From: Anaerolineales bacterium
GTDB taxonomy: Bacteria; Chloroflexota; Anaerolineae; Anaerolineales; UBA4823
DNA length: 64,000 nucleotides
Reading direction: 5' to 3'
Assembly: GCA_016935755.1 (NCBI GenBank)
Contig: JAFGQI010000171.1
Location: forward strand, 1-64,000
Part shown: positions 12,736-19,836 of the stretch, one piece after another
Layout: each line of letters begins with the position of its first letter
Numbering within the stretch: the first letter of the stretch is position 1
Notes under the pieces: model-generated
Told to the model about the DNA's origin: nothing
The model's input: the letters and a program-made list of their open reading frames with translations, nothing else
Databases searched by the model: none
Translations under genes and position numbers: made by a program

Positions 12736-13470
12736 TTATACCAGACTCTGTCGAAGGGAATCTAACTGTCCAGCTATCGAGCCGTCCAGCACTTTGTCAC
12801 CGACTTTCACCACCAGGCCGCCTAAAATCACCGGGTCGACGCGGAAAGTCACTGTCTGGCTGCCTGTCCTGGCAAGAATATTCTTGCGGACAGACTCTTT
12901 TTCTTCCTCGGTCAGCGGCAGTGCGCTGGTGATTTCAGCGGAGCCACCCTGCATTTCCGCTTCTTCCAGCAGAACCACCTTGCCAGCTTTCACACCGGAG
13001 AAGAATTCGTCGATCAGAGTGCGCTGTCGCTTTTCGTCCAGCGCTTCTCCGATAAGCTTCTGGGTCGCAGCCATCGCCAGGGCAGCTACCTGCCCGCGCA
13101 AATCCGCCAGGATGCGGTCACGCTCCAGGGCGGCCTCCGCCAGGGCGGATTCGCGCGCTTTGGCAATATCTGCTTCTGCGCTGGCAGCCACCTGGCGAGC
13201 AGCCGCTTCGGCCCTTTCGGTAGCTTCGCGCACTTTTTGCTGAGCTTCAACCTGAGCCTTGGCAATAATATCACGCGCCTCTTTTTCGGCGTTGGCGCGC
13301 GCTTCCGCTGCCACACGAGCGTCTTCCATGCTCTGGGCAATTTTCTGCTTACGGGTCTCAAGCGCCTTGACGATGGGTTTATAGGCCCAGGCATACAACA
13401 AGATCCCCACGATCACAAAGTTGAGGATCTGGAAAATCAAAAACCCCAGGTTAATCCCTAATGCAGCCAT
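12736..13470 (-). CDS. atpF: ATP synthase b subunit fused to the C-terminal domain of delta
   Basis: 244 residues. An N-terminal membrane helix (about 8-28) is followed by a long Ala/Glu/Arg-rich coiled coil to about residue 165, as in F0 subunit b. Residues 180-244 match the C-terminal domain of subunit delta: ITSALPLTEEEKESV, then VDPVILGGLVVKVGDKVLDG and a final LDSLRQSL. The helical N-terminal domain of delta, which binds the top of the alpha subunits, is missing. This differs from the mycobacterial b-delta protein, where the whole delta is present. The protein should form the peripheral stalk of the ATP synthase. A separate full delta gene elsewhere cannot be excluded. Confidence 0.85.
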   Translation of the reverse strand: MAALGINLGFLIFQILNFVIVGILLYAWAYKPIVKALETRKQKIAQSMEDARVAAEARANAEKEARDIIAKAQVEAQQKVREATERAEAAARQVAASAEADIAKARESALAEAALERDRILADLRGQVAALAMAATQKLIGEALDEKRQRTLIDEFFSGVKAGKVVLLEEAEMQGGSAEITSALPLTEEEKESVRKNILARTGSQTVTFRVDPVILGGLVVKVGDKVLDGSIAGQLDSLRQSLV

Positions 13471-13492: not shown

Positions 13493-13744
13493 TTAGCCGG
13501 CCGCGAAGATGATGATCAGCGCCACAGCCAGGGCATAGATCGCCACCGCTTCAGCGAAGGCCATGCCCAGGATCATGTTGGTCTGGATGATCGGGGTAGC
13601 ATCCGGGTTGCGACCCATCGCCTGCACACCACCGGAGGCGGCAATACCCACGCCCACGCCAGCGCCGATCGCGCCCAACATCGCCAGGCCCGCGCCCAAC
13701 AGCTTCAATCCAGCAATAAAAGAGGCTCCGTCAATTCCACTCAT
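13493..13744 (-). CDS. atpE: ATP synthase F0 subunit c
   Basis: 83 residues forming a two-helix hairpin. Helix 1 has the Gly-rich packing motif GAIGAGVGVGIA. The polar loop reads MGRNPDA. Helix 2 carries the ion-binding Glu in GMAFAEAVAIYAL. The helix-1 Gln and the Ser/Thr after the Glu that mark sodium-binding c rings are absent, so proton coupling is expected. It sits in the rotor ring in the membrane. Located 57 bases after atpB and 22 bases before the atpF fusion. Confidence 0.95.
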   Translation of the reverse strand: MSGIDGASFIAGLKLLGAGLAMLGAIGAGVGVGIAASGGVQAMGRNPDATPIIQTNMILGMAFAEAVAIYALAVALIIIFAAG

Positions 13745-13801: not shown

Positions 13802-14872
13802 CTAGTGATGGTCGCTGCCATGCTCGTCGCCATGATGGCTGACCATGGCCATACTGGCAAATACCGTGGCCAACAGGAAGAACACGTAGGCCTGGATAGC
13901 GCCAAAGAAAATTTCAAAAAGATAGAGACCTGCCGGTAGAGCCACTGCAGTTAGCGCACCCAAGATAGACAGCAGCAGCGCTCCCGCGAAGATATTTCCG
14001 AACAACCGGAAGCTAAACGACAGGATCTTAGCCAACTCCAGGAAGAGTTCCAGAAAGCCCACCGCAAAATTGATCAGCCCAAAAATTCCGCCGCTGACCA
14101 GCTGTTTGAACTGGAAAAACTTTTCGAAGTAGGAAGGCCCCAGCGCCCAGACGCCATAGACCTGCGACATGAACACAGCGATAATCGCCAGCGCCAGGGG
14201 GAAGTTCAGGTCGGTAGCAGAGCCGCGCAGGAATGGCACCACCTCGCAGGATTGGCACAGCTCAGCTGCGCCTTCCTCGCCATGAGCGACTTCTTCACCC
14301 TCGCTGTGGGCTTCTCCTTCCGCGGCGGCATGCGCCACCGGGTGACCTTTATCGATAGTGAATACACCCAGGCTGCCAAGCTGGAACAGCTGCACAGGGG
14401 CGTAACCCGTACCCTTGTGGACTTCTTGAAGACGGCCAATGCTCTCAAAACCCGGCACCAGCTTAACCATATTGGCCACAAAAACCAGCAAAAATATGGT
14501 TGCCACGACCGGGAACACCCGTTTGGCATATTTGCCCACAGTGCCTTCGACCGAATTCCACAAGAATTCCACAATCGTCTCAAACGCATTATAAAAACCA
14601 GATGGCACCAATGAACCACGCTTTGAGAAGCGGTAAGCGCCGAGCGCCAAGAGGATCAGCAGCACATCCGTGATCAACGTGGCCAGGATAGTATTGGTGA
14701 TGGGGAAACCCAGGATAGACAGGCCGGTTTCTTCGGGCGGCACCACCACCACCGGGCTGATGGGTTTCAGAATCGATGGCCCGATAAAAGCAGCGTATAT
14801 TCCCACTGCAAACAGCGCCAGAATGATCCAGCGCTTGACCGGTCGGCGTTTTTTAATCGTTGCTTCACTCAC
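13802..14872 (-). CDS. atpB: ATP synthase F0 subunit a
   Basis: 356 residues, longer than the usual 240-280. GTG start preceded by AAGGAGG and overlapping the atpI stop by four bases. The essential Arg is in FSFRLFGNIFAGALLL near the C-terminus, and about six hydrophobic segments are visible. Extra length comes from an N-terminal extension and from a hydrophilic insertion near residues 175-215, rich in His and Glu (HPVAHAAAEGEAHSEGEE) and followed by CQSC. Subunit a forms the proton half-channels against the c ring. The His-rich C-terminal tail (HHGDEHGSDHH) adds to the metal-binding look. Confidence 0.93.
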   Translation of the reverse strand: MSEATIKKRRPVKRWIILALFAVGIYAAFIGPSILKPISPVVVVPPEETGLSILGFPITNTILATLITDVLLILLALGAYRFSKRGSLVPSGFYNAFETIVEFLWNSVEGTVGKYAKRVFPVVATIFLLVFVANMVKLVPGFESIGRLQEVHKGTGYAPVQLFQLGSLGVFTIDKGHPVAHAAAEGEAHSEGEEVAHGEEGAAELCQSCEVVPFLRGSATDLNFPLALAIIAVFMSQVYGVWALGPSYFEKFFQFKQLVSGGIFGLINFAVGFLELFLELAKILSFSFRLFGNIFAGALLLSILGALTAVALPAGLYLFEIFFGAIQAYVFFLLATVFASMAMVSHHGDEHGSDHH

Positions 14873-15177
14873 CAGTCTTCTTCCTCCTTTCCTAAATGAG
14901 ATTTACCCCCCGGGGGGATTGGGGGATTGATATCCTTCACCGCCCGTGTGGCAAGCAAAAAAGTCAAGAATAACGACAGGGGTGCAGAACCTAATACCAA
15001 AATCAGCATGATAACAGGCTTTGTACCCAGCAGGCGGTCCAACCATATCCCGCCGAAAACTGCTGCCAGCACAATAATCAATGTCAGGCAACCAATTTCC
15101 CCACCCACTGCACCCAGTTTTGCCAGATAGGCATATTGTGCGTGTTGGGGATCGGGTGGACTACCAGTCGGTGCCAT
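14869..15177 (-). CDS. AtpI/AtpZ-type small membrane protein of the ATP synthase operon
   Basis: 102 residues with two hydrophobic helices (about 28-50 and 54-77) joined by the short polar loop GGIWLDRLLGTKP. This size, topology and position directly before atpB match AtpI or the AtpZ/AtpQ family, reported to assist c-ring assembly or magnesium transport. It is the first gene of the atp set, and the promoter at 15187-15216 leaves almost no leader. Which subfamily it belongs to cannot be decided by eye. Confidence 0.8.
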   Translation of the reverse strand: MAPTGSPPDPQHAQYAYLAKLGAVGGEIGCLTLIIVLAAVFGGIWLDRLLGTKPVIMLILVLGSAPLSLFLTFLLATRAVKDINPPIPPGGKSHLGKEEEDW

Positions 15178-15272: not shown

Positions 15273-16739
15273 CTATCCGAACATGGTCGCGGCAGCTGAG
15301 CTGGCCCAACTGAACCAGGGGGCAAAGAGCGTGCCGATCAGCACAATCCCCACCACCAGCACCACCAGAGCCAGTTTATAGGGGCGAGACATCGGCACCG
15401 CCAGCTGATCATCTTCGGCGGGCCTGCCAGCCTGCTCAGCCCGGTACAGATAGACATACTTCAGCACCGTCAGATAGTAGTATAGGCCGACGATAGAGTT
15501 GAGCACGCCCAGCACAGCCAGCCAGATCAGGCCCGACTGGATGGCTGCGGCGAAAACCAACACCTTGGTCACAAAACCACCCAGAGGGGGCATACCCGCC
15601 AGCGACAGGAAGGCAACCATCATCACCAGGGCCAACCCAGGGGCGCGGCGGCTCATGCCGTAATAAGCAGTGACATCATCTGAACCGGCGATGCGCCCAA
15701 AGGCTGCCACCACGCCAAAGGCTGCCAGGTTAGTGACCAGATAGGCGATCAGGTAGAACACTGTGCTGGTCAGCCCCAGGGCGCTCATGGAGACAAAGCC
15801 GATCAGGGCATAGCCAGCATGAGCAATCGAGGAATAGGCCAGCAGACGCTTGATATTGCGCTGGGTCAGAGCGATCAGGTTGCCCAGGGTCATGGTCGCC
15901 ACGGAGAGGGCTGCCAGGATCGGCCCCCACAGCGGGATCACCTGCGGAAAGACGGTCAAGAAGACCCGGATCAGCACCGCGAAGCCAGCCGCCTTGGAGG
16001 CGGTGGAGAGGAACCCAGCCACAGGCGTGGGAGCGCCTTCGTACACATCTGGAGCCCAAAAATGGAAAGGTACGGCTGAAATTTTGAAACCAAAGCCAAC
16101 CAGAACCAGCAGCAGGCTGCCGAGGATTACCACCAATGGCACCTGTCCCTGGGATAAACCCGTGTAAATCTCAGCCAGATCGGTCGTCCCGGCAAAACCA
16201 TACAGCAGGCTGAAACCATACAGCATGATCGTGGATGTCAGCGCGCCGAAGAGCAGATATTTGAATCCAGATTCGGTGGATTTCTCATCTCCGGTGAAGA
16301 AACCCGCCAGGATGTACAGCGGAATGGAGGTGGTCTCGATCGCCAGGTAGAGCATGATCAGGTTGGTGGCGGAGGCCATGAAAGACATGCCGATGGCAGA
16401 GATCAGCATCAAAACATAAAAGGCGCCGCGCTCGCCCAGTTCCTTGTAATCCATAGCGAACAGGGCAGTGATGCCTGCGCCAAAAACAAACAGCATCTTG
16501 AAGGTGAAACCCAGCCAGTCATAGCTGAGCATGCCGCCCCAGATGAGATTAGCCTGCATTCCAGGCCGGGCAAACAGGCTCAGCAGCAAGATCAGCCCGG
16601 CGCCTACGGCAGTCACCCAGCCCAAGTTGCGATGCTGCTCTTTGGGCAGGATCATATCCAGCCCCAGAATAACAAAAGCCAGAGCAAAGAGCAAGATTTC
16701 CGGCAAGATCGGCAAGAACATGGTTGCATCAAGAGACAT
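15273..16739 (-). CDS. nuoN: NADH-quinone oxidoreductase subunit N
   Basis: 488 residues with about 14 hydrophobic segments. It is an antiporter-like proton channel subunit of complex I. Hallmarks are the ESGFKYLLFGALTS segment, KISAVPFHFWAPDVYEGAP, SSIAHAGYALIGF and LAGMPPLGGFVTK. It is the last nuo gene of the cluster and starts two bases after the second antiporter-like gene ends. The distance from nuoN to the atp promoter is short, so some read-through into the ATP synthase genes is possible. Confidence 0.95.
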   Translation of the reverse strand: MSLDATMFLPILPEILLFALAFVILGLDMILPKEQHRNLGWVTAVGAGLILLLSLFARPGMQANLIWGGMLSYDWLGFTFKMLFVFGAGITALFAMDYKELGERGAFYVLMLISAIGMSFMASATNLIMLYLAIETTSIPLYILAGFFTGDEKSTESGFKYLLFGALTSTIMLYGFSLLYGFAGTTDLAEIYTGLSQGQVPLVVILGSLLLVLVGFGFKISAVPFHFWAPDVYEGAPTPVAGFLSTASKAAGFAVLIRVFLTVFPQVIPLWGPILAALSVATMTLGNLIALTQRNIKRLLAYSSIAHAGYALIGFVSMSALGLTSTVFYLIAYLVTNLAAFGVVAAFGRIAGSDDVTAYYGMSRRAPGLALVMMVAFLSLAGMPPLGGFVTKVLVFAAAIQSGLIWLAVLGVLNSIVGLYYYLTVLKYVYLYRAEQAGRPAEDDQLAVPMSRPYKLALVVLVVGIVLIGTLFAPWFSWASSAAATMFG

Positions 16740-16741
16740 GG

Positions 16742-18238
16742 CTAGGCACCTCCCAGCAGGCTCAATACATTTTGGACGCCCGATTCCACCAGCGGAACAA
16801 TAATCTGGGGATAGACGCCCACAATGACCATAATGGCAGACAGGAAGACAAGCGCGACTTTATCCAGCACTGTGACATCGTGCACATGGCCTTCGAACTC
16901 TTCAGGCAATTGGCCGAAGAAGACCTTGCCGATGATGCGGATAATATACGACGCGGTGATCACGATCGATACGGCGGCGATGATAGCAATCCAGGCGTAG
17001 CTGCTGAAGATATGAGATGGCTCGCCATCCCACAGCCCCATAAAAATGGGAAATTCGGCGATAAAGCCGGAGAAGCCTGGCATGCCCATCGAGGCCAGGC
17101 CGCCAATGATAAAGGCGATCGCCACAAATGGCATCACCTTGCGAAAACCGCCCAGGTTGGGTATCTCTCGGGTGTGCGCCCGGTCGTACACCATCCCGAC
17201 CACAGCAAAGAAGAGAGCCGTCATCACCCCGTGCGAGAACATCTGAATGCCCGCTCCGAGCATACCGGCCTTATTCAGCGTGGCAAAACCCATCGAGACC
17301 AGGCCCATGTGCGAGACTGAAGAGAAACCAATGACATACTTGAAGTCCGTCTGCACACTGGCGATAAAAGCCCCATAGACCACATTCACCAGCGTCAGCA
17401 GAATGATCCAGGGCATGTGGTATCTGGCCCCCTCCGGCAGAAGCATGATCCCCACCCGCAGGGCTGCAAACGCGCCCAGCTTCATCAGCACGCCCGCATG
17501 GAACATCGAGACAGCCGTCGGCGCCGCCACGTGACCATCCGGGCTCCAGTTATGGAAGGGGAAGATGCCGCCCAGCACGGCAAAACCGAAGAAAACAAAC
17601 GGGAACCACAGCCGCTGGAAATCTCCAGTGAAACCCGCCTGCTCCAAAGCCAGCATATCGAAGGTCTTTAATCCGGAGGTGAAGTACATCGCCAGCGCGC
17701 CAACCAGGGCAACCACCGAGCCGATGAACAGATACAGGGTCAGCTTCATGGCGGCGTACTCTCGGGTCACCTTCCAACCCCAGATTGAAATCAGCAGATA
17801 CATCGGGAAGACGGCAATCTCATAAAAGAAGAACAGCATGAACAGGTCTAAGGCGACAAAAACGCCAAACACGCCGGTCGCCAGGATGAACATAAAAGCA
17901 AAGAATTCGCGCGGCCGGTCATCGACCCCCCAGGAGATCAGCACCCCGGTGAACATCACCACCCCGGTCAGCAGCACCAGGGGCGTATTCATGCCATCCA
18001 CGCCAACATGATAGGAGATGCCCAGAGCCGGCAGCCAGTCATACTTTTCGATGAACTGGTATCCCCCGGCGGCGATATCGTACGAGAAGTACAGCCAGAT
18101 CGACAGGATCAGGGCAAACGCGCCGGCTGCCAGGGCAGCCATACGCACTTCCGTCTTGCGTTCGGCAGGGATCAGCAGGATGAGCAGGCCCGCCAGGATG
18201 GGTATAAAGACTATCACACTCAAAATTGGAAATTGCAT
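16742..18238 (-). CDS. nuoM: NADH-quinone oxidoreductase subunit M, copy 2
   Basis: 498 residues, multi-spanning. It is an antiporter-like subunit recognised by FFYEIAVFPMYLLISIWGW (catalytic Glu in TM5), FHNWSPDGHVAAPTAVSMFHAG, SSVSHMGLVSMGF and HGVMTALFFAVVGM. It is a paralogue of the gene directly upstream (18289-19836). The two differ in detail, for example HNWSPDGHV here against HTWLPDAHT there, so they are old duplicates, not recent copies. Either could be closer to true NuoM; both belong in the proton-pumping arm. The gap before it is 50 bases. Confidence 0.92.
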   Translation of the reverse strand: MQFPILSVIVFIPILAGLLILLIPAERKTEVRMAALAAGAFALILSIWLYFSYDIAAGGYQFIEKYDWLPALGISYHVGVDGMNTPLVLLTGVVMFTGVLISWGVDDRPREFFAFMFILATGVFGVFVALDLFMLFFFYEIAVFPMYLLISIWGWKVTREYAAMKLTLYLFIGSVVALVGALAMYFTSGLKTFDMLALEQAGFTGDFQRLWFPFVFFGFAVLGGIFPFHNWSPDGHVAAPTAVSMFHAGVLMKLGAFAALRVGIMLLPEGARYHMPWIILLTLVNVVYGAFIASVQTDFKYVIGFSSVSHMGLVSMGFATLNKAGMLGAGIQMFSHGVMTALFFAVVGMVYDRAHTREIPNLGGFRKVMPFVAIAFIIGGLASMGMPGFSGFIAEFPIFMGLWDGEPSHIFSSYAWIAIIAAVSIVITASYIIRIIGKVFFGQLPEEFEGHVHDVTVLDKVALVFLSAIMVIVGVYPQIIVPLVESGVQNVLSLLGGA

Positions 18239-18288
18239 CGGTCACCTCACGTAGAACTTGTCAGGTATCACGTGCCAAGTGCCACGTC

Positions 18289-19836
18289 TTAGAATAACTT
18301 CGTCACCACGTTGTTAATCACTTCCAGGATCCAGGAAGGCCAGATGCCAATCCAGAGCATCAGCACCATCAAGGGCACAATCACCAGGATTTCGCGGGGA
18401 TTGATCTCGGAGAGATGACCAATCCAGTGTTCATTCACCGGCCCGTGCAGAACCTGCTTGATGGCTTTGAGGATGTATGCGCCAGTGAAGAACAGACCGA
18501 TCATCCCCAGGGCGGTAGCCAGAGTGAAGACGGGCCATGCGCCTCGCACCACCAGGAACTCCGACACAAAACCATTCAATCCCGGCAGGCCCAGCGAGGC
18601 CATCGAGGTGAAGATCAGGATGCCGCCATACACCGGCACAAGCGGGAAAAGCCCGCCAAAATCATTCAGGCTGCGGGTGTGGGTGCGCTCATAGATCACC
18701 CCCACCAGGAAGAACATCCCAGCCGCCGAGAGGCCGTGGTTGAACATCTGCAGCACCGCGCCGTTCAGGGCGATATGGGCGTTCTGGGAGCCCTGGGCAT
18801 AAGCCGCCGCAGCGATGCCCAGCACCACAAAGCCCATGTGATTGACCGAGGAATAAGCCACCAGGCGTTTGAAATCATCCTGCCCAAAGGAGGCCAGCGC
18901 GCCGAAGATGATCGCCATCACCGCCAGGAAAGCCAGCCAGCCAGCATATGCTTTGGACTCAACCGGGTAGAGCGGCAGCACCAGGCGCAGAAAGCCATAT
19001 GCGCCCAGCTTGAGCAGGATGCCAGCCAGGATCATCGAGCCAGCCGTAGGGGCTTCGGTATGGGCATCGGGCAGCCAGGTGTGGAAAGGCCAGACCGGCA
19101 CTTTGAGGGCGAAAGCAATCGTAAAAGCCCAGAAAGCAATCGCCTTGACTGTGGCGATGGGCAGCCCAAACAGGGAGCCGTCAAGCGAACCCCATTTGCG
19201 GTATAACTCCAGGATATCAAAAGAACCGTTCACCACGCCCAGCATCTGGATCGCCAGCAGCAGCCCCAGCGAGCCTGCCATGGTGTAGATCATGAACTTG
19301 AAAGAAGCATAGGTGCGCGCCGGGATCTTTCGCCCACCCCAGATTTCACGCTCGCCCTTCTCGCTGCCCCACTGATTGATCAGGAAGTACATCGGAACCA
19401 GCCCAAACTCCCAGAAAACAAAGAAAAGCAGCAAATCGAGCGACAAAAAGACGCCCAGCATGCCCATCTCGAGCAAGAAAAACAGGATCATGTAAGATTT
19501 CACCCGGTCCTGGATGCTGAAAGAGGCCAGAATCGAAAGGGGCGTCAGCAAAGCGGTCAGCAGCACCATGGTCAGGGAAATGCCATCCACCCCGACATGA
19601 AAAGTGGAGCTGATGGCGCTGTACCAGACGTACTGCTCTTGAAACTGGAAGCCCTCGCCAGCCTGATCGAAATTCAACCACAGGATCAGCGTCAGGATCA
19701 GCGGGATGAAGCTGAAGGCGAACGCCGTCCAGCGGAGAACCCCTTTCTGATCACTGGGCAGCAGAAACAGAACCACCGCCCCAAGCGCCGGGGTAAATAA
19801 GATGAGCGTCAGCAGATGATTTACGATGAAATCCAT
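18289..19836 (-). CDS. nuoM: NADH-quinone oxidoreductase subunit M, copy 1
   Basis: 515 residues, about 14 membrane helices. Typical NuoM elements are FFVFWEFGLVPMYFLINQWG, KVPVWPFHTWLPDAHTEAPT with the conserved Lys, SSVNHMGFVVLGI and NHGLSAAGMFFLVG. It fits canonical NuoM better than the following paralogue because of the HTWLPDAH segment. It works in the membrane arm of complex I and moves protons. The ATG is 42 bases from the nuoL stop. Confidence 0.93.
   Translation of the reverse strand: MDFIVNHLLTLILFTPALGAVVLFLLPSDQKGVLRWTAFAFSFIPLILTLILWLNFDQAGEGFQFQEQYVWYSAISSTFHVGVDGISLTMVLLTALLTPLSILASFSIQDRVKSYMILFFLLEMGMLGVFLSLDLLLFFVFWEFGLVPMYFLINQWGSEKGEREIWGGRKIPARTYASFKFMIYTMAGSLGLLLAIQMLGVVNGSFDILELYRKWGSLDGSLFGLPIATVKAIAFWAFTIAFALKVPVWPFHTWLPDAHTEAPTAGSMILAGILLKLGAYGFLRLVLPLYPVESKAYAGWLAFLAVMAIIFGALASFGQDDFKRLVAYSSVNHMGFVVLGIAAAAYAQGSQNAHIALNGAVLQMFNHGLSAAGMFFLVGVIYERTHTRSLNDFGGLFPLVPVYGGILIFTSMASLGLPGLNGFVSEFLVVRGAWPVFTLATALGMIGLFFTGAYILKAIKQVLHGPVNEHWIGHLSEINPREILVIVPLMVLMLWIGIWPSWILEVINNVVTKLF

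Follow-up and report, generated by a model that had tools for sequence, protein, structure and literature searches.

The locus examined here raises the question of how an ATP synthase can hold its F1 head when subunit b runs directly into the C-terminal domain (CTD) of delta and the N-terminal domain (NTD) is missing. The window—the whole 64,000-nt stretch of Anaerolineales DNA that was analyzed—carries on its minus strand an open reading frame (12736–13470, stop codon counted) that translates from ATG into 244 aa. Its residues 11–140 matched positions 2–131 of the 132-position Pfam profile ATP-synt_B (PF00430; E 1.8e-22), and residues 1–156 aligned to positions 1–156 of NCBIfam PRK14473, a 164-aa b subunit. 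By these matches, residues 1–160 (12991–13470, minus strand), with their transmembrane helix and coiled coil, are a complete b subunit. The OSCP/delta profile (PF00213), in contrast, matched residues 175–243 with positions 102–172 of 172 only (E 3.5e-18). The delta NTD is absent from the protein, and the CTD (residues 177–244; 12739–12942, minus strand) is present alone. Between the two parts lies a linker with low pLDDT (residues 161–176; 12943–12990, minus strand), the least conserved part of the protein, with a mean identity to the window sequence of 0.51 as compared to 0.78 and 0.66 in its flanks (63 aligned proteins). As this linker comprises only 16 residues, there is no space for an NTD of ~100 residues.

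The distance from b to the delta CTD was conserved across the 63 aligned proteins and therefore reflects neither chance nor a frameshift, and all 27 members of the ortholog alignment matched both Pfam families. An assembly error or frameshift was likewise ruled out as its source, since the fusion recurs in 80 named loci and in most of the 60 relatives. A sequence-only reading of the locus had described a b coiled coil leading into the delta CTD with no delta NTD, and the profile matches, the short linker and the conservation bear this out. That reading had also stated that mycobacterial b-delta fusions keep the full delta; this is correct, with the CTD match falling at residues ~378–440 of chains of 445–448 aa. 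Mycobacterial b-delta resembles the window protein in that b is fused N-terminally to delta in one chain, but those ~445-aa chains retain the whole of delta and pair with a second b, whereas here the NTD is gone and a single b gene scored over the cut-off.

An AlphaFold2 run on an alignment of 63 sequences predicted, for the full-length monomer, one continuous helix (residues 8–161) followed by the order beta-alpha-beta-beta-beta-alpha that is typical of the delta CTD, and the CTD predicted alone showed the same order of strands and helices. Since the full-length model aligned poorly outside the CTD in Foldseek owing to its long helix, the CTD alone was also used as a query. The top matches were delta/OSCP CTDs from bacteria, mitochondria and chloroplasts. 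The CTD model has medium confidence (mean pLDDT 70; TM scores against known CTDs of about 0.6), and the assignment to the delta-CTD family consequently rests mainly on sequence.

The b-delta gene is the last of a four-gene Fo operon on the minus strand, in the order atpI-like, a, c, b-delta. The atpI-like gene (ATPase_gene1; 14869–15177; PF09527, E 8.3e-6, slightly below its curated cut-off) holds the first position in most relatives, too. It is followed by atpB (subunit a; 13802–14872; PF00119, E 4.3e-34), whose nearest solved chain is Chloroflexus aurantiacus a (9itj_T, E 3.2e-40), and by atpE (subunit c; 13493–13744; PF00137, E 4.9e-18). As read from its sequence, subunit c lacks the usual Na+ ligands, which makes H+ coupling likely. 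Subunit a is long (356 aa) and contains an acidic His/Glu-rich stretch at residues about 176–205 (14258–14347, within atpB). Directly upstream of the operon on the same strand (15273–19836), three genes read, by eye from their translations, as complex I nuoN and two nuoM-like genes.

Comparison with other Chloroflexota revealed the fusion to be clade-wide. In a set of 61 genomes, comprising the window organism's own and 60 relatives, b matched over the cut-off in 56 and the short OSCP segment in 55, on the same contigs, and the best OSCP matches lay in reading frames that also carry a b domain. Both were missing in five genomes, whose drafts probably lack the Fo operon, and in one genome (G010) b sits at a contig edge without the delta tail. 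Scanning named genomes yielded 80 fusion loci from Anaerolineae-type Chloroflexota at 57–74% identity, Anaerolinea thermophila MAGs included. Nearly all lie in an Fo-only operon of the same kind that is not followed by atpA. At several loci (L080, L084, L087, L088, L101, L103–L105, L113 and L114), a beta-like match of ~0.9–1 kb was seen several kb (about 6 kb) downstream of b-delta. Among the 29 genomes with atpA located, the F1 and Fo operons were separate in all 16 with the fusion versus none of the 13 without it; these counts are not independent events, as the alpha tree, compatible with one or with several fusion origins, does not reject a single one (p-AU 0.29). All 13 unfused genomes keep delta directly upstream of alpha-gamma-beta.

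How, then, might such a stalk hold F1? In ordinary enzymes the delta CTD contacts one alpha N-terminus, and the NTD, on the pseudo-three-fold axis, binds the other two (PMC12229609). Since the CTD itself makes an alpha contact, a stator without the NTD would still be attached to F1. The earlier proposal that the stator must join F1 in a different manner thus holds insofar as the join departs from the textbook arrangement, but not in the sense of a lost anchor. The N-terminal helix of alpha was retained in all 16 fused genomes aligned. As a separate observation, alpha carries a ~50-aa insertion after the motif LERAARxA in 15 of these 16 genomes (not in G274) and in none of the 13 unfused Chloroflexota; the loci are the organism's own atpA (L035:4996-6657) and L152, L154, L156, L158, L161–L165, L170, L171 and L173–L175. 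E. coli alpha has a shorter insertion at the same place.

We propose that the fused protein would be the only peripheral-stalk polypeptide of the organism's main H+-type ATP synthase. It would homodimerize through the b coiled coil, and the delta CTD would cap the top of the stalk and hold the alpha N-terminal helix directly, as in ordinary enzymes. The NTD would have been discarded along with its contacts to the other two alpha N-termini, which would be dispensable, and the three-fold axis left open could admit two or three stalks, as the Chloroflexus enzyme suggests. This one-polypeptide stator, with the CTD held on alpha, the NTD discarded and possibly several stalks, is the best explanation and in our judgment probably the right one. 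Its observed part consists of the domain content, the lack of any other delta or b in the draft genome, the clade-wide conservation, the canonical F1 and the preserved alpha N-terminal helix.

Loss of the NTD plausibly permits several stalks. In Bacillus PS3, deletion of the delta NTD combined with fusion of the CTD to alpha gave active enzymes that make ATP; these carried as many as three stalks and reached an H+/ATP ratio of 5.8. The authors' conclusion was that the delta NTD limits the enzyme to one stalk (PMC12229609; Nat Commun 2025). A natural deltaN-alpha fusion occurs in Acidaminococcus fermentans (PMC12229609). These fusions (PS3 construct 9jc1) resemble the window protein in that the NTD is removed and the CTD joined to a partner, but the partner is alpha there and b here.

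The second line of evidence is the C. aurantiacus ATP synthase (PDB 9itj–9itu; 9itj and 9itk released 2025-03-19), the nearest solved relative of the window organism's a, b, delta CTD and gamma. The nearest solved chain to the delta CTD is its delta (9itj_S, E 1.8e-13, 39% identical). The enzyme comes from the same phylum and has a delta shortened to 157 aa; the state 2 entry (9itk) models only 69–70 residues of each delta chain, the size of a CTD. Each entry contains 3 alpha, 1 gamma, 10 c, 2 a, 4 b and 2 delta chains, and from these chain counts we infer two peripheral stalks and two a subunits. In contrast to the window enzyme, C. aurantiacus keeps b and delta separate, retains part of the NTD and has one delta per b pair.

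The absent or reduced NTD expected of a multi-stalk enzyme is thus found in the window protein, and several stalks are a reasonable expectation from C. aurantiacus and PS3. Two points speak against a simple transfer. A fused homodimer brings two delta CTDs to each stalk, as opposed to one delta per b pair in C. aurantiacus (4 b, 2 delta), so that the second CTD needs a role; and in the engineered PS3 enzyme the covalent partner of the CTD was alpha rather than b. We therefore suggest only tentatively, at slightly less than an even chance, that Anaerolineae-type ATP synthases are natural multi-stalk machines, in which each alpha may carry its own stalk and a subunit; every c-ring would then have two or three proton channels, and the high H+/ATP ratio would suit ATP synthesis at a low proton-motive force. 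The numbers of stators and proton channels set the H+/ATP ratio and hence the lowest proton-motive force for ATP synthesis, and with half of the F1-binding cap lost, the motor may have become able to hold several stalks.

The two CTDs per stalk would be accounted for if both CTDs of one homodimer bound F1 in different poses and a single stalk was retained, as in FliH. The N-terminal part of FliH resembles b and its C-terminal part delta; in the FliH2-FliI complex, the two C-terminal domains contact FliI in different conformations (PMC9114704). Foldseek also retrieved FliH (5b0o) and V-ATPase stalk chains with the model of the window protein, and 12, 11 and 8 of the 27 ortholog members weakly matched the FliH, HrpE and V-ATPase E profiles. 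FliH/SctL and V/A-ATPase E do share with b-delta a long coiled coil and a delta-CTD-like head in one chain of a peripheral stalk, but the sequence similarity is weak, FliH lacks an anchor in a rotary Fo, and E pairs with G. The window protein itself scored 9.8, 16.5 and 14.6 bits against the FliH, HrpE and vATP-synt_E profiles, all below the curated cut-offs; such weak matches to coiled-coil families are partly a matter of composition, and the nearest solved relative has two stalks by chain counts, not one. We regard this single-stalk arrangement as possible but rather doubtful.

The NTD could instead be encoded elsewhere, strongly diverged, and complete the stalk; the sequence-only reading had offered as one way out that another delta gene must exist. 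The organism's genome is a draft in 177 contigs, 87.5% complete, and a helical domain, if diverged, can escape profile searches. Within this draft, however, the b-delta gene was the sole OSCP/delta match even at E ≤ 10, no OSCP NTD being detected, and no second b-type gene scored over the cut-off. The F1 genes lie on another contig (C90), apart from the Fo operon, in the order atpA-atpG-atpD-atpC (alpha-gamma-beta-epsilon), downstream of genes reading as ruvC-ruvA-proC; gamma was found once in the draft. No atpH was found at this F1 locus, where only 93 bp separate proC from atpA with no gene between them. Nor did the fusion-bearing relatives yield a separate delta over the cut-off, save for an extra fused b in G051 and a short partial match in G015. 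Neither a separate nor a full-length delta gene was thus found in the 87.5% complete draft, and the supposed second gene lacks support. Together with the graded NTD shortening, rather than splitting, seen in related lineages, this makes a diverged NTD gene unlikely. In RBG-9, a Chloroflexi genome, the delta gene was reported missing (PMC3971608), for which a CTD-only fusion is a possible reason.

That gradation emerged from the delta genes of other Chloroflexota. Among 300 sampled genomes of the phylum, delta of most members outside this class matched the full profile (E about 1e-40 or better). Related Chloroflexota possess unfused delta genes ranging from about 180 down to 118 aa, plus one of 83 aa. 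Separate deltas with a shortened NTD measured 174–175 aa in G137 and G227 (same class as the window genome), 152–166 aa in G190, G211, G350 and G069, and 118–120 aa in G087, G197 and G176, the last again of the same class. In G068 (L053), the 83-aa gene encodes a separate CTD-only delta whose start overlaps the end of b as ATGA; this CTD may be naturally unfused, or the gene may be a fusion broken by a frameshift. A large natural clade with the NTD deleted and the rest fused to b therefore stands beside relatives with a partly shortened delta, one of them with two stalks by chain count, so that comparisons among them can test how stator number evolved. Although an ancestral stalk subunit has been proposed to have split later into b and delta (PMC5706428), the view that b-delta is a relic of this undivided state rather than a derived fusion is very improbable: most other Chloroflexota have a separate full-length delta, the nearest lineages, three of the same class, have unfused NTD-shortened genes, and in the alpha tree the fused group does not branch off outside all the rest.

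By its profile scores, the enzyme is the organism's main, canonical-type ATP synthase, albeit with a CTD fused to b in place of a separate full-length delta. Its alpha, beta, gamma and epsilon subunits exceeded the canonical cut-offs (TIGR00962 780.8, TIGR01039 790.7, TIGR01146 286.4 and TIGR01216 115.1 bits), and canonical models outscored N-ATPase models for alpha (780.8 versus 610.4 bits), beta (790.7 versus 589.8) and gamma (286.4 versus 68.5). An N-ATPase, the alternate Na+-type F-ATPase in which a missing delta and a longer b are normal (PMC5706428), shares both traits with the window enzyme, and the N-ATPase b model TIGR03321 (alt_F1F0_F0_B) aligns nearly the whole of b-delta (11–242 to 8–244). 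Its score of 74.7 bits, however, is far short of the cut-off (224.7), and every N-ATPase (TIGR033xx) model stays below its own. The gene order here, I-a-c-b and alpha-gamma-beta-epsilon, also departs from that of N-ATPases (beta-epsilon-...-a-c-b-alpha-gamma). The alpha, beta and gamma scores rule this identity out.

What remains is a likeness at the level of architecture. N-ATPase AtpF, like b-delta, combines b with a delta-like tail in an enzyme that has no delta of its own, but the window F1 and Fo score as canonical, differ in gene order, belong to the sole F-type ATP synthase found and include a c that lacks the usual Na+ ligands. A tailed b of this kind, with delta missing as a separate subunit, hence has precedents in N-ATPase (PMC5706428) and FliH (PMC9114704). 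In the literature searched we found no paper describing a CTD-only b-delta stator, which does not show that none exists. This CTD-only b-delta, a stator variant shared across the clade, is akin to mycobacterial b-delta, N-ATPase b and the deltaN-alpha fusions but differs from each of them. The canonical and N-ATPase types can be told apart within the phylum: in other Chloroflexota, second b genes that carry a delta tail (L064, L065, L062 and L066) have TIGR03321 as their best model, below its cut-off, and form a separate type.
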